Made by a program: the position numbers and the translations under genes
In this document: piece after piece, positions 2,440 through 56,610 of the stretch
How the letters are laid out: each line of letters opens with the position of its first letter
Numbering within the stretch: position 1 is the stretch's first letter
The notes under the pieces: generated by a model
The model's input: the letters and a program-made list of their open reading frames with translations, nothing else
Told to the model about the DNA's origin: nothing
The model's database searches: none
Origin: Aureivirga sp. CE67
GTDB taxonomy: Bacteria; Bacteroidota; Bacteroidia; Flavobacteriales; Flavobacteriaceae
Direction: 5' to 3'
DNA: 64,000 bases
NCBI RefSeq assembly: GCF_015767245.1
Contig: NZ_JADOTV010000001.1
Location: forward strand, 618,896 to 682,895

Positions 2440-2546
2440 GGAGCTTCCCTTTTCTTCGTTTAAAAAAACTCAGAAAAGGTCGGGCTTTCCGCTATATCTT
2501 TTGCTCCGTACCTCCGCAAAAGGATGCCGCTGCAATCCCTAAGCCA
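2440..2546 (-). repeat. Interspersed repeat R1, copy 1
   Basis: A 69-bp block (2478-2546) is identical, in inverse orientation, to 56514-56582. Next to it lies a variable hairpin (TTTTCT about 2450-2455 paired with AGAAAA 2472-2477) and a conserved GGAGCTTCCC end (2440-2449). The other copy keeps the block and the end but has a different, still self-complementary hairpin. It sits between the small membrane protein gene and aroA. Confidence 0.85.
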
Positions 2547-2606
2547 CATTATTTCGTTCATCAATAATTTCTCCATACAAATGAACTTATAATACAAAAA
2601 CAATAA

Positions 2607-38005: not shown

Positions 38006-39286
38006 TTAAAAAACTTTCTCAAACTTCTCAACAATTTCCTCCAAACACAAATTCCCGATACTTCCTTCATGTGTATGATTTATTTCTTTTGTTGGTTTAA
38101 AATTTCCTTCCAAAATTTCTTTTCCTAAAATCTGATATGCATCTCTGAAAGAAATTCCATTCAAAACCATTTTATTGACTTCTTCTACACTATATAAATA
38201 ATCGTACATTTCATTTTCCAAAATCGAATCTTTCACCTGAATATTTTGCAACATAAATTCAGTTACTTCCAAAACTTCTTTGATTTCATCGATACTAAAC
38301 ATCAAATTTTCTTTCAAAAGTTGAAAATCTCTATGATAGCCACTTGTCAAATTATTCGTAATCATCATAATTTCTGATGGAATATTTTGCAGCTTATTAC
38401 ATTTTGCTCTTATTAATTCAAAAACATCTGGATTTTGCTTGTGTGGCATAATACTCGATCCAGTTGTCAATTCTTTTGGAAAAGAAATAAAATTAAAATT
38501 CTGACTCATATACAAACAAACATCCGAAGCGAATTTAGAAAGTGTTCCTGCAAGTGAAGCAATCGAAAAACCTATTGATTTTTCCAATTTCCCTCTACTC
38601 ATTTGCGCTGCAACAACATTATATTTCATCGTTTCAAATTCCAATAATTCGGTAGTCATTTTTCTATCAATAGGAAAAGAAGAACCATAACCAGCAGCCG
38701 AACCAAGCGGATTTTGATCTGAAATTTGATAAACTGTATTTAGAAAAAGTAGATCATCTACCAAACTTTCTGCATAACTCGAAAACCACAAACCAAAAGA
38801 AGATGGCATCGCAATTTGCATATGCGTATATCCTGGAAGTAATTGTTTTTTATGCTTTTCTGCTAAAGAAATCAAAGTATAAAACAGCTTTTTTGTAAGC
38901 GATTTAATCTCCGAAATTTCTTCTTTCACATATAAATGTAAATCCACCAAAACCTGATCATTTCTAGATCTTGCCGTATGAATTTTCTTTCCTGCTTCTC
39001 CAATTAATTTCACCAGTTCAAATTCAATTTTAGAATGCACATCTTCAAATTGCTCTTCTATTTCAAAGTTTCCATTTTCAATTTGTGTTTGAATAATTTT
39101 TAAACCATCTAAAATTTTTGTCAATTCTTCTTTTGATAAAATCCCTATTTTACACAGCATTTTCGCATGTGCGATATTTCCTAAAACATCAAATTTTGCT
39201 AGTTTTTCATCTAAAATTCTATCATTTCCAACTGTAAATTTTTCTACAATATTTTCAGTTGCATATCCTTTCGCCCAAAGTTTCAT
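38006..39286 (-). CDS. argH: Argininosuccinate lyase
   Basis: A 426-residue lyase splitting argininosuccinate into arginine and fumarate, the last step of arginine synthesis. HTARSRNDQVLVDLHL (near 102), GYTHMQIAMP (near 146) and the fumarase/ASL signature GSSIMPHKQNPDVFE (near 275) are present. Last gene of the eight-gene arginine operon, 4 bp after the deacylase gene. Confidence 0.96.
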   Translation of the reverse strand: MKLWAKGYATENIVEKFTVGNDRILDEKLAKFDVLGNIAHAKMLCKIGILSKEELTKILDGLKIIQTQIENGNFEIEEQFEDVHSKIEFELVKLIGEAGKKIHTARSRNDQVLVDLHLYVKEEISEIKSLTKKLFYTLISLAEKHKKQLLPGYTHMQIAMPSSFGLWFSSYAESLVDDLLFLNTVYQISDQNPLGSAAGYGSSFPIDRKMTTELLEFETMKYNVVAAQMSRGKLEKSIGFSIASLAGTLSKFASDVCLYMSQNFNFISFPKELTTGSSIMPHKQNPDVFELIRAKCNKLQNIPSEIMMITNNLTSGYHRDFQLLKENLMFSIDEIKEVLEVTEFMLQNIQVKDSILENEMYDYLYSVEEVNKMVLNGISFRDAYQILGKEILEGNFKPTKEINHTHEGSIGNLCLEEIVEKFEKVF

Positions 39287-39290
39287 CTTC

Positions 39291-40358
39291 TTAAATTAAA
39301 ATCTTACTTAATAATTCGATATAAATATCGATTCCCTCTTCAATCTCTTTTACATAAATAAATTCATCCGCACTGTGTGATCGTGTCGAATTTCCTGGTC
39401 CTAATTTCAAAGAAGGGCATTTCAAAAATGTCTGATCTGAAATGGTTGGAGATCCATAAGTTTCTCTACCAATTTCAATTCCTGCTCGCACAATCGGATG
39501 ATTTTCGGAAATAGAAGAAGAATTCAACTTAAACGATCTGGCAGTAATTTCGCTTTTGGTATTTTCATCAATTATTTTAAAAACTTCTTCATTTGTATAA
39601 CAGTCATTCACACGAACATCTACTACAAATTCACAAATTGCTGGAACCATATTATGCTGATTTCCTGCTTGAATTTGCGTCACATTCATTTTTACTTTTC
39701 CTAAAGTTTTTGACACTTTCAGAAACTCATAATTTTGAAACCAAAGAATATCTTCCAATGACTTATAGATAGGGTTTTCTGTGTTTTCATGTGCTGCATG
39801 TCCTGGAATTCCATCCATTTTCGCATCTAAAACCAACAAACCTTTTTCTGCAATTGCCAAATGCATTTGCGTCGGCTCTCCTACAATCGCAAAATCAATT
39901 TCTGGAAGCAAAGGCAACAAACTTTTAATTCCATCATCTCCAGAAATTTCCTCTTCGGCAGTGATTGCGATGATTAAATTATAGTTAAGATTTTCTTTTT
40001 TATAAAAATGAACAAAAAGCGTCAACAAAGAAACCACACAACCTCCAGCATCATTACTTCCTAAACCAAATAACTTTCCATTTTCAATTTTTGATTCAAA
40101 CGGATTTCTTGTATAAGCTTTGTTTGGTTTCACTGTATCATGATGTGAGTTCAGTAAAATCGTAGGTTTATTTACATCAAAATGGTAATTTTTCGCCCAA
40201 ATATTATTTTTCAGACGATTTGTTTTTACACCAAAACCTTGCAACCAATTTTCAATTAAATTTCCTGTTTTAGCTTCTTCTTTAGAAAAAGAAGGCGTTT
40301 CAATCATTTGTTTCAGCAAAGCAACTGCTTCTAAATATTTTATATCTGAATACATCAT
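39291..40358 (-). CDS. argE: M20-family N-acylornithine/acylcitrulline deacylase
   Basis: A 355-residue metallopeptidase of the M20 family. NSHHDTVKP (metal His and Asp, near 71), the GSNDAGG segment, ITAEEEISGDDG (catalytic Glu) and VGEPTQMHLAIAEKG are typical. The operon contains an N-acylornithine carbamoyltransferase, so the likely substrate is N-acetyl- (or N-succinyl-) citrulline rather than acylornithine. Placed 2 bp after argB and 4 bp before argH. Confidence 0.9.
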   Translation of the reverse strand: MMYSDIKYLEAVALLKQMIETPSFSKEEAKTGNLIENWLQGFGVKTNRLKNNIWAKNYHFDVNKPTILLNSHHDTVKPNKAYTRNPFESKIENGKLFGLGSNDAGGCVVSLLTLFVHFYKKENLNYNLIIAITAEEEISGDDGIKSLLPLLPEIDFAIVGEPTQMHLAIAEKGLLVLDAKMDGIPGHAAHENTENPIYKSLEDILWFQNYEFLKVSKTLGKVKMNVTQIQAGNQHNMVPAICEFVVDVRVNDCYTNEEVFKIIDENTKSEITARSFKLNSSSISENHPIVRAGIEIGRETYGSPTISDQTFLKCPSLKLGPGNSTRSHSADEFIYVKEIEEGIDIYIELLSKILI

Positions 40359-40360
40359 TT

Positions 40361-41134
40361 TTAAAGAATTATGGAAGTGAATTCATTACTATTAAATTTA
40401 ACTAAATCAATATTGCCAACACAGACTTTTTGCACATTTTGCTCTAAAGCCTGAAAACAGTTTTCCAATTTTGGCAACATTCCATTGTGAATAATTTGTT
40501 TGTTTTTTAAGTCTTGAAATGTTTTTTTGTCTAAAGTTTTAAAGAAAGAATTCTCATCTTCCACATTTTTTAAAACTCCTTTTTTCTCAAAACAGTAATA
40601 CAATTCCGACTCGTATTTTTCATTCATTCCAATGGCAATTTCCGACGCAATGGTATCTGCATTTGTGTTTAGTAGAAAACCATTTGCATCGTATGAAATT
40701 GCGCAAAATACAGGTGTTATTTTTTGCTCTAAAAGAACGGAAATCAAATCCGAATTTATTTGTTCAACATCACCAACCCAACCAAAATCGATTGGCGTTT
40801 TTTCTCTTTTTTTGGATAAAACACTTTTCCCATCTGCACCCGACAAACCAAGAGAATTACAACCAAAAGACTGCAATTTTGCAACAATCTTTTTATTGAT
40901 TAAACCTGCATAAGTCATCGTAACAACTTCCAAGTTTTCTTCAGATGTAATTCTCCTTCCCTGAAACATTTTGGTTTCGTACCCAAGACTTTCATTCATT
41001 TTTGTAGCAATATTTCCACCGCCATGAATCAGAATTTTTGGTTCGTCAATTGCAGAAAAATCTTGAAGAAAAGTATCTAATAAAACCTCGTTGTTGATAA
41101 TGTTTCCTCCAATTTTAACTATTTTCAATTCCAT
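40361..41134 (-). CDS. argB: N-acetylglutamate kinase (or N-succinyl variant)
   Basis: A 257-residue amino-acid kinase phosphorylating N-acylglutamate. VKIGGNIINN (6-15, phosphate loop), ILIHGGGNIATKMNESLG (34-51) and the LGLSGADGKSVLS segment are recognisable, as is the later LNTNADTIASEIA block. It overlaps the preceding carbamoyltransferase gene by 20 bp, which implies translational coupling. Confidence 0.94.
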   Translation of the reverse strand: MELKIVKIGGNIINNEVLLDTFLQDFSAIDEPKILIHGGGNIATKMNESLGYETKMFQGRRITSEENLEVVTMTYAGLINKKIVAKLQSFGCNSLGLSGADGKSVLSKKREKTPIDFGWVGDVEQINSDLISVLLEQKITPVFCAISYDANGFLLNTNADTIASEIAIGMNEKYESELYYCFEKKGVLKNVEDENSFFKTLDKKTFQDLKNKQIIHNGMLPKLENCFQALEQNVQKVCVGNIDLVKFNSNEFTSIIL

Positions 41135-42071
41135 CCTGAAGTATTTTATATAAAACAGCTTGCGCTGAAAAAGTTCTATTATTTGCTTGCTCTAAAACCA
41201 AAGAAGCTTGACTATCGATCACTTCATCCGAAACCACTACATTTCTTCGGACTGGAAGACAATGCATGAATTTTCCATGATTGGTTTTATCCATTTTTTC
41301 TTGTGTCAACATCCAATTTTCATCTTCTAAAGTTTTCCCATAATCTTCATACGAAGACCAATTTTTCACATAGACAAAATCAGCATTTTCCAAAGCTTCT
41401 TCTTGATTATGCAAGACAGGAATTCCTTTTGTAATCTCTGGATTTAAATCAAAACCTTTCGGATTTGCAATCACCAATTCTGCTTCTGTTTCTTTGATCC
41501 ATCCCACAAAAGAATTGGCAACAGCTTGTGGCAAAGCTTTTGGATGCGGAGCCCAAGTCAGAACAATTTTCGGTTTTTTCTTGGTTTTATTTTCTTCAAT
41601 TGTCAAAACATCTGCGAAAGATTGCAATGGATGTTTAGTGGCACTTTCCAAAGAAATTACAGGAACGGAAGCGAATTCAATAAATTTATTTAAGATTTTT
41701 TCTTCATAATCTTCTTGTTGATTTTTCAAGTTTGCAAAAGCTCTAATTCCAATCACATCACAATATTGAGAAAGTACTCCAGCGGCTTCTTTAATATGTT
41801 CTGAAGTCCCTTGATTCATCACCGTTCCGTTTTCCAATTCAATCTGCCAACCATCCGAATTTACATTCATCACCATGATTTGCATTCCCAAATTCATCGC
41901 AGCTTTTTGCGTACTCATTCTTGTTCTCAAACTTGGATTGAAAAACAATAATCCTAAAGTTTTATTTTCTCCCAAATGCTTATTTACAAAAGGATTTTCT
42001 TTCATTTTTTGGGCTAAAGAAATCATTTCTTCTAAAGAATCGATATCTTTTACAGAAGTGAATTGTTTCAT
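41115..42071 (-). CDS. argF': N-acylornithine carbamoyltransferase
   Basis: A 318-residue transcarbamylase of the acetyl/succinyl-ornithine type found in Bacteroidota and Xanthomonas, forming N-acylcitrulline. The carbamoyl-phosphate motif reads FFNPSLRTRMST (43-54; SLRTR instead of the STRTR of ordinary OTCases), with HPLQSFADVLT and the HCLPVRRNVVVSDEV block, which resembles the Bacteroides SOTCase. Whether the acyl group is acetyl or succinyl cannot be decided by eye; the discriminating region is around residues 88-92. It overlaps argD by 4 bp. Confidence 0.9.
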   Translation of the reverse strand: MKQFTSVKDIDSLEEMISLAQKMKENPFVNKHLGENKTLGLLFFNPSLRTRMSTQKAAMNLGMQIMVMNVNSDGWQIELENGTVMNQGTSEHIKEAAGVLSQYCDVIGIRAFANLKNQQEDYEEKILNKFIEFASVPVISLESATKHPLQSFADVLTIEENKTKKKPKIVLTWAPHPKALPQAVANSFVGWIKETEAELVIANPKGFDLNPEITKGIPVLHNQEEALENADFVYVKNWSSYEDYGKTLEDENWMLTQEKMDKTNHGKFMHCLPVRRNVVVSDEVIDSQASLVLEQANNRTFSAQAVLYKILQDGIENS

Positions 42072-43201
42072 GATAAAATAGTTTTTAAAGCTTTTACAAA
42101 AAGTGCTAAATCTTGTTTTTGAATGTTTAATGGAGGAAGAATTCTCAATAAATTCGGATTTGCCGAAGCTCCTGTGAAAATGTGATATTTTTGTAATAGT
42201 TCTTTTCTTAAATCAGAAATTGGCGCATCGAATTCAATTCCCAACATCAAACCTTTTCCTTTGATCTTTTTGATTTTTTCTAAAGATTTTAATTCTTCTA
42301 AAAAGTATTTTTCTATTTCTAAAACATGATTCAGAATATTTTCTTCTTTCAAAACTTTTAGAACAGAAAGCGAAGCTTCACAAGCCAAATAATTTCCTCC
42401 GAAAGTAGTTCCCAACATTCCTTTTTTAGCTTTAATTTTTGGAGAAATCAAAACTCCAGCAACCGGAAATCCATTTCCCATTCCTTTTGCCATCGTTACT
42501 AAATCCGCTTGAATTTCTCCGTATTGATGTGCAAAGAATTTCCCAGTTCTTCCAAATCCGCTTTGAATTTCATCTAAAATCAACAAGACATTTTTTTCTT
42601 CTGTGATTTTTCTCAAAAATTTCAGAAACTCAGGAGTTGGAGTATCTAAACCACCAACTCCTTGAATTCCTTCTAGAATAACAGCAGAAACATCGCTCTT
42701 TTTTAGTGCCTGAACAATCTGCTCTTTATTGTTCAGTTCTAAAAATTCGACATCGAAGTTTTTTATGTTAATTGGAGCCGAAAGATTTGGATTATCAGTA
42801 ACATTTAAAGTTGCCGCAGTTCTTCCGTGAAAACTATTTTTAAAAGCAATTACTTTCTTCTTTTTTGTATGAAATGAAGCCAATTTCAAAGCATTTTCAT
42901 TCGCTTCTGCTCCACAATTACAAAAAAATAATTCATAATTTTTATAATTACATTGTTCCAAAATTTCAGCTGCAAGTTCTTCTTGTTTTGGCATCAAAAT
43001 CGAGTTGGAATAAAAACTGATTTTGTCCAATTGTTTTTTCAGATTTTCAACAAAAACAGGATGTGAATGCCCAATAGAAATCACGCCATGTCCTCCATAT
43101 AAATCCAAATATTTCTGTCCATTTTCGTCAAAAACGAACGTACCTTTCCCTGTCACAAGGTTTATCTCAAACCTCGGATATACATCAAAAATATGTTTCA
43201 T
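42068..43201 (-). CDS. argD: Acetylornithine aminotransferase (class III)
   Basis: A 377-residue PLP enzyme converting N-acylglutamate semialdehyde to N-acylornithine. YLDLYGGHGVISIGHSHP (32-49), FHGRTAATLNVT, LILDEIQSGFGRTGKFFAHQ and the PLP-lysine motif TMAKGMGNGFPVAGV are all typical of the acetylornithine/ornithine transaminase group. Nine bp after argC and overlapping the next gene. Confidence 0.95.
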   Translation of the reverse strand: MKHIFDVYPRFEINLVTGKGTFVFDENGQKYLDLYGGHGVISIGHSHPVFVENLKKQLDKISFYSNSILMPKQEELAAEILEQCNYKNYELFFCNCGAEANENALKLASFHTKKKKVIAFKNSFHGRTAATLNVTDNPNLSAPINIKNFDVEFLELNNKEQIVQALKKSDVSAVILEGIQGVGGLDTPTPEFLKFLRKITEEKNVLLILDEIQSGFGRTGKFFAHQYGEIQADLVTMAKGMGNGFPVAGVLISPKIKAKKGMLGTTFGGNYLACEASLSVLKVLKEENILNHVLEIEKYFLEELKSLEKIKKIKGKGLMLGIEFDAPISDLRKELLQKYHIFTGASANPNLLRILPPLNIQKQDLALFVKALKTILS

Positions 43202-43210
43202 GATTACTTT

Positions 43211-44185
43211 TTAAAAATAAGTGGCTTTCAATTCTAATCCCGTTTTCTCAGGAAAATCAAATAATAAATTCATGTTTTGCACTGCTTGTCCGGCAGCACC
43301 TTTTAGTAAATTATCAATCACAGAAGTAATCAATATTTTTCCGTCTATTTTTTCTAGTTGTAAGAAGCAATTGTTTGTGTTTACAACTTGTTTTAAATGT
43401 ACTTTTTGCTTTGTAACAAAAACAAATTCACTCTTTTGATAATAGTTTTCAAAAAGAGAAAAAACTGCATCTAATTCTAAATCGGTTTCAAGATATATAC
43501 TGGCAAAAATTCCTCTTGTAAAATCTCCTCGAATTGGTAAAAAATGAATCTTCGAATCGAAATCTTTCTGAAGCGAATTCAAGGTTTCTGAAATTTCTCC
43601 AAGATGCTGATGTGTAAAAGCTTTATAACTCGAAACATTATTATTTCTCCAACTAAAATGTGAAGTTTCCGAAAGTTTTTGTCCAGCTCCAGTTGCTCCC
43701 GTGATCGCATGAATATGAAGATCTTTTTTCAATAAATTCTTTTCAGCCAAAGGAAGCAAAGCAAGTTGTATCGCAGTTGCAAAACATCCAGGATTTGCAA
43801 TAAAATCTGCTTTTTTAATTTCCTTTTTCTGAAAATCTACCAAACCATAAACAAAGTTTTTATCTTGAAAAAAAGCATCTTCTTTCAAACGGAAATCATT
43901 ACTTAAATCAATAATTTTTGTTTGTTTTGAAAAAGTATGATTTTCTATAAATTTCTTCGAATTTCCATGTCCTAAACAAAGAAAAAGAACATCAATATTT
44001 GGATTAATTTCCGATGAAAATTTTAAGTCTGAAAACAATAAATCTTGATGAATTTCGCCAACTTTTTTCCCAGAATTTGAATGACTAAAAAGAAAATCAA
44101 TTTCTACATTTGGATGGTTTATTAAAAGTCTGATTAACTCTCCTGCAACATATCCGCTACTTCCTACAATTCCTACTTTTTTCAT
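43211..44185 (-). CDS. argC: N-acetyl-gamma-glutamyl-phosphate reductase
   Basis: A 324-residue NADPH-dependent reductase. GIVGSSGYVAGELIRLL (5-21) is the nucleotide-binding motif, DLSNDFRL (93-100) and the active-site ANPGCFATAIQLAL (Cys134) are diagnostic. It overlaps argG by 4 bp. Confidence 0.95.
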   Translation of the reverse strand: MKKVGIVGSSGYVAGELIRLLINHPNVEIDFLFSHSNSGKKVGEIHQDLLFSDLKFSSEINPNIDVLFLCLGHGNSKKFIENHTFSKQTKIIDLSNDFRLKEDAFFQDKNFVYGLVDFQKKEIKKADFIANPGCFATAIQLALLPLAEKNLLKKDLHIHAITGATGAGQKLSETSHFSWRNNNVSSYKAFTHQHLGEISETLNSLQKDFDSKIHFLPIRGDFTRGIFASIYLETDLELDAVFSLFENYYQKSEFVFVTKQKVHLKQVVNTNNCFLQLEKIDGKILITSVIDNLLKGAAGQAVQNMNLLFDFPEKTGLELKATYF

Positions 44186-45378
44186 GAGTTCTGAGCATTT
44201 ACATTGTTATAAATTTTCATCGAATTTGCCATAATTTTGGTAAATCCTTTTACATCTTCTCCTCTCCAATTCTTATTCATTTCACCATAATCTCCAAAAT
44301 CTGATTTCATTAAATCAAAGTCAGATTCGATGCCGTCTACCGTAAAATGATAAGGTTTTAAAGTTACCATCACAGCACCAGAAACTGTTTTTTGTGTATG
44401 TTCCAAAAATTGCTCAATCGAACGCATTACAGGTTCAAAATACTGTGCGTCATGAATAAACATTCCGTACCAACTTCCTAATTGCTCTTTCCAATGCAAT
44501 TGCCATTTTGATAAAGTATGCTTCTCCAAAGTATGATGTGCTTTGATAATAATAGCAGCAGCAGCAGCTTCAAAACCAACCCTTCCTTTAATCCCAATAA
44601 TCGTATCGCCAACATGAATATCTCTACCAATTGCAAACTTATTAGCAATTTCTTCCAAGGTTTGAATTGCTTTTACAGCAGACATTTTTTCATCATTGAT
44701 TCCACAGATTTCTCCATTTTCAAAATGTAAAATGATTTTCTCATTTTCTGTTTTAAGCAATGGACTTGGAAAAGCTTTTTCAGGTAAAGTTAGGTTAGAA
44801 GTCAACGTTTCTGCACCACCAACACTTGTTCCCCAAAGCCCTTTATTGATAGAATATTGTGCTTTTTCCCAAGGAATCGAAACATTGTGTTTTGCTAAAA
44901 AATCGATTTCTTCTTTTCTCGAAAGTTTTAAATCTCTGATAGGTGTCAGAATCTCGATTTCTGGAGCGATCAACTGAAAAATCAAATCAAAACGCACTTG
45001 ATCATTTCCTGCTCCCGTACTTCCATGAGCGATATATTTTGCTCCAGATTCTTTTGCATAAGTTGCCAAAGCAATCGCTTGATGAATTCTTTCCGCACTT
45101 ACAGAAAGTGGATAAGAATTGTTTTTTAGAACATTTCCAAAAATCAGATATTTCACGATTTTCTGATAATAATTCTCCGTTTGTTCTAATGTTTTATGTG
45201 TTTTCACTCCTAAAAAATAAGCTTTTTGCTCAATTTCTTGAAGTTCTTTTTTAGAAAAACCACCAGTATTTACTATGGCAGAATGAACATCTAAATTCTT
45301 TTCGTGTTTTAAATATTTTACGCAAAAGGAAGTGTCCAACCCTCCGCTAAATGCTAAGATTACTTTGTTATTTTTCAT
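44182..45378 (-). CDS. argG: Argininosuccinate synthase
   Basis: A 398-residue ATP-dependent ligase joining citrulline and aspartate. The N-terminal ATP loop AFSGGLDTSFCVKYL (9-23), the AHGSTGAGNDQVRFDL segment (near 117) and the GVGGAE-like SVGGAETLTS region are characteristic. It is the second gene of the operon and overlaps the acetyltransferase gene by 11 bp. Order argG-argC-argD-argF'-argB-argE-argH is tight throughout. Confidence 0.95.
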   Translation of the reverse strand: MKNNKVILAFSGGLDTSFCVKYLKHEKNLDVHSAIVNTGGFSKKELQEIEQKAYFLGVKTHKTLEQTENYYQKIVKYLIFGNVLKNNSYPLSVSAERIHQAIALATYAKESGAKYIAHGSTGAGNDQVRFDLIFQLIAPEIEILTPIRDLKLSRKEEIDFLAKHNVSIPWEKAQYSINKGLWGTSVGGAETLTSNLTLPEKAFPSPLLKTENEKIILHFENGEICGINDEKMSAVKAIQTLEEIANKFAIGRDIHVGDTIIGIKGRVGFEAAAAAIIIKAHHTLEKHTLSKWQLHWKEQLGSWYGMFIHDAQYFEPVMRSIEQFLEHTQKTVSGAVMVTLKPYHFTVDGIESDFDLMKSDFGDYGEMNKNWRGEDVKGFTKIMANSMKIYNNVNAQNS

Positions 45379-45988
45379 GATTTAGATTCGTTAAATTTTC
45401 TATTGAATTAAACTCGACCAATGAATTGCTTCCTTCGTTGCTGTGTTGTTTTGTGTGTTGTGTTTTTAAGTCGCAAATCATTCCTGTGCAAAGACACATT
45501 GTACGGTTTGTCCGTTTCAAAATGTCATAATTTTTGCAGCTCCGACATCCGTTCCAGAATGTCTCGTCTTTTGTTAATTCAGAAAAAGTAACCGGCTTAT
45601 AACCTAAATCCGAATTGATTTTCATCACTGCTAAACTTGTGGTAATTCCGAAAAGTTTTGCCGTAGGAAATTTCTCTTTTGACAAATCAAAAATTGCCTT
45701 CTTAATTGCTTTCGCAAGTCCTTTTTTCTGATATTTTGGATGAATTATCAATCCTGAATTTGCTACATATTCTTGGTCTTCCCAACTCTCGATATAGCAA
45801 AATCCGACAGCTAAATCATTGTCAATCGCAATGATAGCTTTTCCTTCTTCCATCTTTTTTTCGATGTAATGAGGTTCACGTTTGGCAATACCAGTCCCCC
45901 TAACACTCGAAGCATTTTCCATCATTTTACAAATTGACGAAGCAAACTTCAAGTGCTTTGAACTAGCATTAGTTATGATTATAGACAT
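45368..45988 (-). CDS. GNAT acetyltransferase with Cys-rich tail, arginine operon first gene
   Basis: A 206-residue protein. Residues about 1-140 form a GNAT N-acetyltransferase with the acetyl-CoA loop KYQKKGLAKAI (85-95). Position at the head of the arginine operon, and absence of other acylating genes, suggest it makes the N-acylglutamate for argB (an ArgA-like job). The C-terminal extension has five Cys in C-x2-C...C-x-C-x4-C spacing (148, 151, 165, 167, 172), possibly a metal-binding or redox element. Overlaps argG by 11 bp; leader peptide and promoter lie upstream. Confidence 0.85.
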   Translation of the reverse strand: MSIIITNASSKHLKFASSICKMMENASSVRGTGIAKREPHYIEKKMEEGKAIIAIDNDLAVGFCYIESWEDQEYVANSGLIIHPKYQKKGLAKAIKKAIFDLSKEKFPTAKLFGITTSLAVMKINSDLGYKPVTFSELTKDETFWNGCRSCKNYDILKRTNRTMCLCTGMICDLKTQHTKQHSNEGSNSLVEFNSIENLTNLNHEK

Positions 45989-46051: not shown

Positions 46052-46070
46052 GTGATGTACGGAACATCAC
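46052..46070 (-). promoter_or_regulatory. Hairpin in the arginine operon leader
   Basis: Perfect 7-bp stem GTGATGT (46052-46058) / ACATCAC (46064-46070) with a 5-nt loop, 10 bp beyond the leader peptide stop. There is a T-run further on (46021-46028 on the minus strand), but not directly after the stem, so whether it is a terminator is uncertain. Confidence 0.45.
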
Positions 46071-46079
46071 ATAAAAATA

Positions 46080-46121
46080 TTACGCCAAAAGGCGACGTCG
46101 GAAATCGAAGCGAAAAGACAT
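46080..46121 (-). CDS. Putative arginine-rich leader peptide (attenuator)
   Basis: A 13-codon reading frame on the minus strand, ATG at 46121 and TAA at 46080-46082, coding for M-S-F-R-F-D-F-R-R-R-L-L-A. Four of thirteen residues are Arg, three consecutive (CGA CGT CGC). It lies in the leader of the arginine operon, about 100 nt after the predicted transcription start. The frame's end overlaps the CGCC/GGCG hairpin (46083-46094). This is the layout of a ribosome-mediated attenuation peptide. Upstream bases are not an obvious ribosome site, so translation is inferred. Confidence 0.5.
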   Translation of the reverse strand: MSFRFDFRRRLLA

Positions 46122-46132
46122 AGCAGTAGCTG

Positions 46133-46148
46133 CAACTAAATTTAGTTG
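46133..46148. promoter_or_regulatory. 16-bp perfect palindrome in the arginine leader
   Basis: CAACTAAATTTAGTTG is fully self-complementary, 12 bp upstream of the leader peptide start and inside the predicted transcript. It can fold as a 6-bp stem with an AATT loop in RNA or serve as an operator in DNA. The flanks AGACATA and TATGTCT form a wider dyad around it. Confidence 0.5.
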
Positions 46149-46230
46149 TGCTGAAAAAATGTTTTGTATGTCTTTAATTGATTTCACTTAAATGTATTTC
46201 TTTTTGTGTTGTATGTAGAAAACAACGGAA

Positions 46231-46261
46231 CAAAAGTAGATGCTTTTTTTGTTTTTGCAAA
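46231..46261 (-). promoter_or_regulatory. Promoter of the arginine operon
   Basis: On the minus strand TTTG (46258-46261), a 19-bp spacer, then TACTTTTG (46231-46238): a full match to the Bacteroidota consensus. Transcription should start near 46224. Confidence 0.78.
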
Positions 46262-50878: not shown

Positions 50879-51367
50879 TTACCTCAAATACTTTTCGTCA
50901 ATATCTTCATCCCACTGTTCCTTAAATCCTTCTATGTAATGCTTTATTACCCAATCTTTTTCATCTTCTGTAAAATGAAATAGCTCCATAGCAGTTTTCA
51001 CAATATCAGGTTCCGTATAACTTATATATCTTTTTAAAATAGTACCATCTTCATCAAAATAAAAATAAGCGATATCAACATAATCGGAATAAGCTAAGGA
51101 TAACTCTTGTAATTTTCCATTCGGATAGTATTCAGAAGAATATCCTCTTGATGGCTCCCCATCATTAAATTCTTCTTCTTGTGCAATGGTACCATCTTCA
51201 TAAACCAATTCTACCTTAAAACCATTAAAAGGTTTTCCATTTAGCATTGATAAATTCCCATCTTGTTTCAATTCTTTTGCAAGGTGTCTTGATTTTTGCG
51301 GTCTTATTAATTCATTTGTTTTACTCCAATCATATTTTTTGGTTGGGTGGTATTTTTTATCATCCAT
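50879..51367 (-). CDS. MORN/YwqK-like tandem paralogue 1
   Basis: A 162-residue protein. The core LNGKPFNGFKVELVYEDGTI and YYPNGKLQEL are MORN-type (YwqK-like) repeats; the rest includes YFYFDEDGTILKRYISYTEPD and FHFTEDEKDWVIKHYIEGF. YwqK-type proteins act as immunity/antitoxins to secreted toxins in some systems. Its N-terminal half (to about residue 60) is identical to paralogue 2, but its C-terminal half follows paralogue 3, a sign of recombination. It is 10-11 bp from its neighbours. Confidence 0.75.
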   Translation of the reverse strand: MDDKKYHPTKKYDWSKTNELIRPQKSRHLAKELKQDGNLSMLNGKPFNGFKVELVYEDGTIAQEEEFNDGEPSRGYSSEYYPNGKLQELSLAYSDYVDIAYFYFDEDGTILKRYISYTEPDIVKTAMELFHFTEDEKDWVIKHYIEGFKEQWDEDIDEKYLR

Positions 51368-51377
51368 AATTTTTGTT

Positions 51378-51866
51378 TTACCTCAAATACTTCTCGTCAA
51401 TATCTTCATCCCACTGTTCCTTAAACCCTTCTATGTAATGCTTTATTACCCAATCTTTTTCATCTTCTGTAAAATTAAATAACTCCATAGCGGTCTTCAC
51501 AATATCGGGTTCCGTATAACTTATATATCTTTTTAAAATAGTACCATCTTCATCAAAATAAAAATAAGCGATATCAACATAAGAAGAATAAGATAAAGTT
51601 ATATCTTTTAATTTTCCATTTGGATAATAATCAGGTGACCAACCTCTTTCTGACTCTCCATCGTTAAATTCTTCTTCTTGAGCAATTGTACCATCTTCAT
51701 AAACCAATTCTACCTTAAAACCATTAAAAGGTTTTCCATTTAGCATTGATAAATTCCCATCTTGTTTCAATTCTTTTGCAAGGTGTCTTGATTTTTGCGG
51801 TCTTATTAATTCATTTGTTTTACTCCAATCATATTTTTTAGTTGGGTAATGTTTTTTTTCATCCAT
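51378..51866 (-). CDS. MORN/YwqK-like tandem paralogue 2
   Basis: A 162-residue paralogue. Compared with the others it has KDITLSYSSYVD in place of QELSLAYSDYVD, and FNFTEDEK in place of FHFTEDEK, features partly shared with paralogue 4. About 150 consecutive bases (51689-51839) are identical to paralogue 1 (51190-51340). Possible immunity protein. Part of a five-gene transcript. Confidence 0.75.
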   Translation of the reverse strand: MDEKKHYPTKKYDWSKTNELIRPQKSRHLAKELKQDGNLSMLNGKPFNGFKVELVYEDGTIAQEEEFNDGESERGWSPDYYPNGKLKDITLSYSSYVDIAYFYFDEDGTILKRYISYTEPDIVKTAMELFNFTEDEKDWVIKHYIEGFKEQWDEDIDEKYLR

Positions 51867-51877
51867 ATTTTTTTATT

Positions 51878-52363
51878 TTACCTCAAATACTTTTCGTCAA
51901 TATCTTCATTCCATTGTTCCTTAAATCCTTCTATATAATGCTTTATTACCCAATCTTTTTCATCTTCTGTAAAATGAAATAGCTCCATAGCAGTTTTCAC
52001 AATATCAGGTTCGGTATAACTTATATATCTTTTTAAAATAGTACCATCTTCATCAAAATAAAAATAAGCGATATCAACATAATCGGAATAAGCTAAGGAT
52101 AATTCCTGTAATTTTCCATTTGGATAATATTCTGGGGAATAACCTCTTGCTTCCCCATCATTGAATTCATCTTCTTCCGCAATAGTTCCGTCTTTATAAA
52201 CTGCTCCTACACTAAAACCATTAAAAGGCTTTTCATTTAATATTGTTAAATTCCCTTCATATGTAAATTCTTTTTCAAGATGCCTTGATTTTTGCGGTCT
52301 TATCAATTCATTTGTTTTACTCCAATCATATTTTTTAGATGGGTAATGTTTTTTTTCATCCAT
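51878..52363 (-). CDS. MORN/YwqK-like tandem paralogue 3
   Basis: A 161-residue paralogue, with LTILNEKPFNGFSVGAVYKDGTIAEEDEF in the first half, the most divergent in the row. The second half is almost identical to paralogue 1. Its DGEARGYSPEYY has one residue less than the others, which explains the length. Confidence 0.75.
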   Translation of the reverse strand: MDEKKHYPSKKYDWSKTNELIRPQKSRHLEKEFTYEGNLTILNEKPFNGFSVGAVYKDGTIAEEDEFNDGEARGYSPEYYPNGKLQELSLAYSDYVDIAYFYFDEDGTILKRYISYTEPDIVKTAMELFHFTEDEKDWVIKHYIEGFKEQWNEDIDEKYLR

Positions 52364-52373
52364 ATTTTTTGTT

Positions 52374-52862
52374 TTACCTCAAATACTTCTCGTCAATATC
52401 TTCATCCCATTGCCCCTTAAACCCTTCTATATAATGCTTTATTACCCAATCTTTTTCATCTTCTGTAAAATTAAATAACTCCATAGCGGTTTTCACAATA
52501 TCAGGTTCAGTATAACTAATATATCTTTTCAAAATAGTACCATCTTCATCAAAATAAAAATAAGCGATATCAACATAAGAAGAAAATGATAAGGATAATT
52601 CCTGTAATTTTCCATTCGGATAGTATTCTGGAGACCAACCTCTTTCCGCCTCACCATCATTAAACTCTATCTCTCGTGCAATAGTTCCATCTTTATAAAC
52701 TAATTCTACCTCAAAACCATTAAAAGGCTTTCCATTTAACATTGTTAAATTCCCTTCTTGTGTAAATTCTTTTTCAAGATGCCTTGACTTTTGTGGTCTT
52801 ATCAATTCATTTGTTTTACTCCAATCATATTTTTTAGATGGGTAATGTTTTTTTTCATCCAT
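52374..52862 (-). CDS. MORN/YwqK-like tandem paralogue 4 (first transcribed)
   Basis: A 162-residue protein with an N-terminus shared with paralogue 3 (KYDWSKTNELIRPQKSRHLE), and LSFSSYVD plus FNFTEDEK shared with paralogue 2. It starts the row of four genes with steps of 496-500 bp. No promoter is evident in the 88-bp gap upstream, which resembles the gap upstream of the SUKH gene at 52951. Confidence 0.75.
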   Translation of the reverse strand: MDEKKHYPSKKYDWSKTNELIRPQKSRHLEKEFTQEGNLTMLNGKPFNGFEVELVYKDGTIAREIEFNDGEAERGWSPEYYPNGKLQELSLSFSSYVDIAYFYFDEDGTILKRYISYTEPDIVKTAMELFNFTEDEKDWVIKHYIEGFKGQWDEDIDEKYLR

Positions 52863-56445: not shown

Positions 56446-56513
56446 TTTTTTTCTGCAATATAGCTATTTATAGAAGAAATTTAAAGCTTAAATATTATAG
56501 CAATTTTATTTTC

Positions 56514-56610
56514 TGGCTTAGGGATTGCAGCGGCATCCTTTTGCGGAGGTACGGAGCAAAAGATATAGCGGAAAGCCCGACCCGTATCTGTTAAGATACG
56601 GGGAAGCTCC
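56514..56610 (+). repeat. Interspersed repeat R1, copy 2
   Basis: The 69-bp block 56514-56582 is identical, in inverse orientation, to 2478-2546. It is followed by a hairpin CCCGTATC (56581-56588) / GATACGGG (56595-56602) and GGAAGCTCC. Lies between the SUKH array and the galE 3' end. Confidence 0.85.

Follow-up and report, generated by a model that had tools for sequence, protein, structure and literature searches.

An arginine-rich leader frame with conserved hairpins precedes the arginine operon of most sampled Flavobacteriaceae and suggests an arginine-sensing leader peptide

How is the synthesis of arginine controlled in flavobacteria, which are without ArgR? The question is raised by a minus-strand operon of eight genes (GNAT, argG, argC, argD, N-acetylornithine carbamoyltransferase, argB, argE-like and argH; Table 1) in the window, by which we mean the whole 64-kb stretch of DNA analysed here. 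A first-pass annotation had placed a short arginine-rich frame ahead of this operon, proposed ribosome-mediated attenuation and set this against the control by ArgR known from other bacteria. The contrast with ArgR holds for the order: no member of the arginine repressor family PF01316 occurs in the genome to which the window belongs, leaving ArgR-type control without an arginine repressor gene there, and gave a single weak match in 248 genomes of the order, the search controls being positive and clear matches appearing in other families of the class. Moreover, no T-box or other Rfam family matched the leader, either at the gathering threshold or at E values up to 1.

The promoter boxes, TTTG (-33) and TACTTTTG (-7), are located on the minus strand where the first-pass annotation had put them and match the flavobacterial -33/-7 consensus. 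The start of the first gene at 45988 was likewise correct in position; this gene, however, encodes a GNAT acetyltransferase, and argG comes next. Between promoter and operon we confirmed the frame M-S-F-R-F-D-F-R-R-R-L-L-A from ATG 46121 to TAA 46082-46080. A length of 13 residues, as originally assigned, is probably wrong, since the frame stays open upstream of this ATG to GTG 46187 (immediately preceded by an in-frame TAA) and the ORFs of relatives, found at the same location, are longer (about 24-38 codons); the window peptide probably comprises 35 residues from GTG 46187, a length found in relatives. Its arginine codons are, in order, CGC, CGA, CGT and CGC, of which CGC is indeed unusual here: it accounts for 3 of the 157 arginine codons in window genes versus 2 of 4 in the leader. 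Three consecutive CGN codons are unique to the leader among frames of 8-40 codons on both strands of the 64 kb. Markov simulations yielded 0.43 such frames by chance in the whole window, and the chance expectation for the correct strand of the 450-nt intergenic stretch is about 0.002, in keeping with the earlier claim that three in a row are unlikely by chance. These window-only statistics (the CGN run and the rarity of CGC) are suggestive without being decisive, and it is the relatives that decide. Both hairpins described earlier, the CGCC/GGCG hairpin overlapping the last codons (H1) and the 7-bp hairpin downstream of the frame (H2), are present, and a third, H0, lies within the leader ORF. 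The 12-mer that forms H1 occurs once in the 64 kb, and H1 and H2 together fold better than shuffles (z -3.4).

Table 1. Features of the arginine operon and its leader in the window.
Feature	Positions	Strand	Basis or score
Promoter of the arg operon, flavobacterial type: TTTG (-33) and TACTTTTG (-7)	46231-46261	-	sequence
Leader ORF, probable full form: GTG start, VKSIKDIQNIFSAQLNLVAATAMSFRFDFRRRLLA, TAA stop, 35 residues	46080-46187	-	open reading and ORF lengths of relatives
13-codon frame (C-terminal part of leader ORF, with all four CGN arginine codons)	46080-46121	-	sequence
Hairpin H0, CAACTA-AATT-TAGTTG, within leader ORF, candidate pause hairpin	46133-46148	-	fold
Hairpin H1, CGCC-TTTT-GGCG, over last arginine codon, adjoining stop codon	46083-46094	-	sequence and fold
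Hairpin H2, GTGATGT-TCCGT-ACATCAC, 7 bp	46052-46070	-	fold
Match to covariance model R2 (H1, linker and H2 of relatives)	46052-46104	-	19.6 bits, E 0.00025
GNAT acetyltransferase, first operon gene, 206 aa	45368-45988	-	Pfam GNAT, weak; adjoins argG in relatives
argG, argininosuccinate synthase	44182-45378	-	TIGR00032, full length, slightly below cut-off
argC	43211-44185	-	TIGR01850, above cut-off
argD-type transaminase	42068-43201	-	TIGR00707, below cut-off
N-acetylornithine carbamoyltransferase (argF')	41115-42071	-	NF003384, above cut-off
argB, acetylglutamate kinase	40361-41134	-	TIGR00761, above cut-off
M20 deacylase, argE-like	39291-40358	-	TIGR01910, below cut-off
argH, argininosuccinate lyase	38006-39286	-	TIGR00838, above cut-off

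The window GNAT protein alone, used as query, found no relatives in the genome contigs; an alignment of relatives succeeded. Within the family, the GNAT gene is present in 131 of 201 genomes, and we inspected 130 of its upstream regions. Nearly all of them share one layout, with an arginine-rich ORF, H1 over its stop codon and then H2. A short upstream ORF with a run of arginine codons is thus kept in relatives, as expected for leader-peptide control, and so are the hairpins, the flanks having diverged. First, all 111 loci keep the leader frame open over 20 codons, versus 27 and 32 loci for the other two frames, and in a second set of named loci it is open in 70 of 70 versus 24 and 25. Second, 39.5% of the last ten leader codons specify arginine (111 loci), as do about 28% at seven leader codons outside H1. 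Third, these arginines are encoded by CGC (47%), CGT (37%) and AGA or AGG (together 11%), opposite to the usage of the window genes (AGA 58%, CGC 2%). Judged with the relatives included, the leader is far beyond what chance would be expected to produce.

The leader ORFs come in more than one arrangement. One layout has a peptide of about 27 residues (e.g. MKGQNYITTTISTTAQVRPFSPRRRRP) whose start codon sits about 7 nt downstream of a TANNTTTG box; such a box stands 4-16 nt (mostly 7) upstream of the leader start codon in 27 of 111 relatives. In another, two leader ORFs lie in tandem. The first of these, MKNLKNKIRCTIPGLPVRSRRRF, is located about 300 nt upstream and shows 84% nucleotide identity versus 43% in the next 45 nt, and the second runs for about 30 residues from ATG, GTG or TTG to an end such as MRRIFPRRP. 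At loci L053, L011, L018, L014, L031 and others we noted a separate arginine-rich ORF, M-K-N-L-K-N-K-I-R-..-R-R-R-F-stop, about 300 nt before the GNAT gene; it precedes the main leader ORF, probably begins close to the transcript start and makes the leader peptides tandem.

H1 of relatives reads GCCC-GTAA-GGGT over the stop codon, with a GNRA loop in most loci, and is followed after about 13-15 nt by H2, which carries a bulged A and the core GG-UGNGU-CC. This core, GGUGNGUCC with its bulged A, is nearly invariant. In the H1/H2 alignment 96.8% of the cells are paired, 8 of 13 pairs have changed on both sides, and double-change cells number 110 versus 27 in shuffles; H1 is mostly invariant and its own covariation is small, so H2 supplies most of the signal. 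H0 stems of at least 7 bp occur at 32 loci versus 3.75 in shuffles, and in the tandem group H0 has 7 bp, lies 30 nt before CGCC and shows compensatory changes and a free loop. The type of the H1 loop and the H2 loop letter show a suggestive link from which phylogeny is not separated out. At three loci (L039, L068 and L089) GG/CC of the H2 core has become GA/UC, both sides jointly, and the loop stays UGNGU. Shine-Dalgarno pairing is little used in Bacteroidota, and the idea that the H2 core AGGUGAGUCC, similar in sequence to the complement of the 16S 3' end, is an element of this type was rejected, given that N varies and that GG/CC changes jointly to GA/UC.

We then determined how far the element extends with covariance models of H1, linker and H2, built from 49 loci (R1) or from 100 loci with the window left out (R2). 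R1 matches 124 of 201 family genomes, with one match per genome in all but two; GNAT is present in 121 of these 124, and of the remaining three, two were examined, both having the element before argG. Wherever its location was checked, the element was found at the arg operon. R2 matches 79 of 80 named Flavobacteriaceae loci (Maribacter, Zobellia, Cellulophaga, Gillisia, Polaribacter, Tenacibaculum, Winogradskyella and others). Beyond the family there were scattered weak R2 matches, which we rejected as true elements on the grounds that none of those checked adjoins an arg gene. A large genus, coded g128 (loci L200-L206, L208, L210 and L212-L215), is without the core element upstream of its GNAT-arg operon. 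Its loci have in common another conserved leader ORF, MNKISLHITSLSRTNSPITSPEVRTLSL-stop, in which two codons are CGG, as well as the hairpins TTTGT-CACGG-ACAAA and GTACTTC-TCCC-GAAGTAC. This leader ORF looks like a replacement of the element because the g128 clade sits inside element-bearing lineages in the GNAT tree.

From these comparisons the arg leader element is real and conserved and its sensing part well supported, and we consider it likely that the leader is an arginine-sensing leader peptide that controls the arg operon. Such a leader would be a cis-acting arginine sensor, translated by a ribosome into a peptide of about 27-35 residues that ends in CGN arginine codons. A scarcity of charged arginine tRNA would make the ribosome stall at these codons, where it would mask the 5' arm of H1, and with ample arginine it would reach the stop codon and leave, allowing H1 and H2 to form in the RNA behind RNA polymerase, a state that would presumably lower expression of the arg operon. 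H0 might serve to keep ribosome and polymerase in step. As output, an early transcription stop that depends on Rho or occurs at H1 and its U-rich linker would be more probable than a block of translation; a pause or weak stop at H1/H2 could provide a transcriptional output alternative to Rho, and a factor that reads H2 is also conceivable. We lean slightly towards transcription as the output step, in preference to translation, because the stretch from H2 to the gene can take up insertions (a distance of 99-247 nt versus about 65 nt usually). The nearly invariant core of H2, with its bulged A, suggests a further or alternative output step through Rho or a hairpin-reading factor.

Several features fit such a sensor poorly. 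The stop codon is placed beyond H1 and near H2 in the window and in some relatives, where a terminating ribosome would extend as far as H2; this geometry is variable. The window copy is without the H2 core motif, g128 has a different leader ORF instead, and neither a U-tract after H2 nor mutually exclusive pairing was found in the leaders compared. Tentatively, we suggest a new arginine-specific attenuator in which a ribosome stalled on CGN codons would switch a small fold (the GNRA-capped H1 and the bulged-A H2). RNA polymerase, Rho or a dedicated RNA-binding protein may then read this fold, without any exchange of terminator and antiterminator, and across most of the family the fold would stand in for the absent ArgR. 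The leader is thus a possible answer to the question of arginine control in flavobacteria. It would place ribosome-based arginine sensing at the arginine biosynthetic operon family-wide, and the nearly invariant H2 offers a concrete handle on leader-peptide action in Bacteroidota.

The attenuation proposed in the first-pass annotation could instead be of the classical his/trp type, with H2 or H1 as intrinsic terminator and a stalled ribosome permitting an antiterminator. The control codons adjoin the stop, one hairpin lies inside the ORF and two come after it, and the window H1, followed by AATATTTTTA, was flagged as the only terminator-like hairpin of the window leader; in relatives, too, the linker after H1 is U-rich. 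However, this U-rich part begins several bases late in relatives, and 6 or more T in the 8 nt following H2 were found at 1 of 115 loci, so that the absence of a T-run directly after the last hairpin, already conceded as a weak point, extends to the relatives. Furthermore, a covariation scan for mutually exclusive or antiterminator pairing revealed H1 and H2 only, and the H2 loop is conserved, as terminators do not need. We regard classical attenuation as unlikely: the arginine leader peptide survives from the original proposal, with its frame, codons and hairpins kept, but neither a terminator after H2 nor a covarying alternative pairing accompanies it.

Translational control also strikes us as improbable. 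Here the leader ribosome and H1/H2 would govern whether translation of the first gene begins, or arginine would arrest leader translation via the nascent R-R-P, just as arginine itself arrests leader translation at fungal arginine attenuator peptides. Consistent with this idea, the H2 core mostly lies 57-72 nt from the gene AUG, and the leader peptides of relatives mostly end in R-R-P-stop, with the stop directly after R-R-P in 95 of 111 loci. On the other hand, H2 is still about 45 nt from the AUG, and insertions of as much as 247 nt are tolerated. The peptide end is not fixed, since R-R is followed by different or additional residues in several genera, and the remaining peptide sequence is unconserved between genera.

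A reading of H1 and H2 as a self-standing RNA that binds a protein or ligand, with the frame incidental to it, is very unlikely. The near-invariance of the GGUGNGUCC core with its bulged A and the GNRA loop on H1 in most loci would suit such an RNA, but a frame open in every locus, compared with about a quarter in other frames, and an arginine enrichment reaching well outside H1 argue against an incidental frame. For the output step, the binding-RNA and leader-peptide readings are compatible.

Returning to the arginine-sensing leader peptide, we asked whether the window itself carries the element. The window H2 sits where relatives have the bulged-A hairpin and has lost the core motif, and R2, built without the window, has its sole match in the 64 kb at this leader. 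The window copy is a divergent member of the element, and one that may be weakened. Neighbours are uninformative on how it diverged because the window GNAT protein sits on a long branch without close kin in the GNAT tree. Although R1 scored the window site at just E 0.07 and the H2 core is absent, a functionless chance resemblance is highly improbable given the R2 match at the correct place and on the correct strand, and the codons and H0, which also fit.

The enterobacterial attenuators hisL, trpL and pheL have a short ORF at the transcript start, a run of pathway codons before its stop and hairpins before and after. The arg leader is alike in its early short ORF, in pathway codons just before the stop and in its flanking hairpins, but it uses arginine, has no detected U-tract terminator or antiterminator and has a second hairpin with conserved loop and bulge. 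Among systems with less familiar outputs, the cys leader peptides of Mycobacterium likewise have a run of pathway codons near the stop and no obvious terminator, and Rho has been suggested (PMC1262725); they differ from the arg leader in using cysteine and in belonging to another phylum, and the three conserved hairpins are found in the arg leader only, none having been reported there (PMC1262725). Arginine codons also occur in orf34, the Salmonella speF leader, where ribosome position alters RNA folding, Rho termination and RNase G decay (PMC6386406), but orf34 belongs to a gamma-proteobacterial polyamine operon and differs in peptide and structure. Similarly, the rbfL uORF of Staphylococcus aureus senses arginine limitation through arginine codons, in its case the rare AGA/AGG, with a stall that blocks translation of a biofilm regulator (PMC13009471). 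Within the phylum, amino-acid operon leaders comparable to the arg leader include the Bacteroid-trp RNA (RF01692, listed in PMC2864571) and those of Flavobacterium psychrophilum, where leader-peptide attenuation is suspected and structured 5' elements of pheA and hisG, but not of arg, are named (PMC9723704); the arg leader, unlike the Bacteroid-trp RNA, is without an Rfam match. In the openly accessible literature our search found no report of an arginine biosynthetic leader peptide in Bacteroidota.

Finally, in relatives the GNAT protein encoded by the first operon gene carries four invariant cysteines close to the C-terminus (GC..C.N...CLCTGM). It is possible that these form a metal site and that the protein takes part in the acylation with which arginine synthesis begins. 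Elsewhere in the window we noted two Flavo-1 RNAs (RF01705, a motif of unknown function) at 2474-2549 (minus strand) and 56511-56586 (plus strand), and, at 50879-52862 on the minus strand, four tandem genes of about 162 codons each, of which the three that were read are near-copies (MDEKKHYPTKKYDWSKTNELIRPQKSRHLAKE...).
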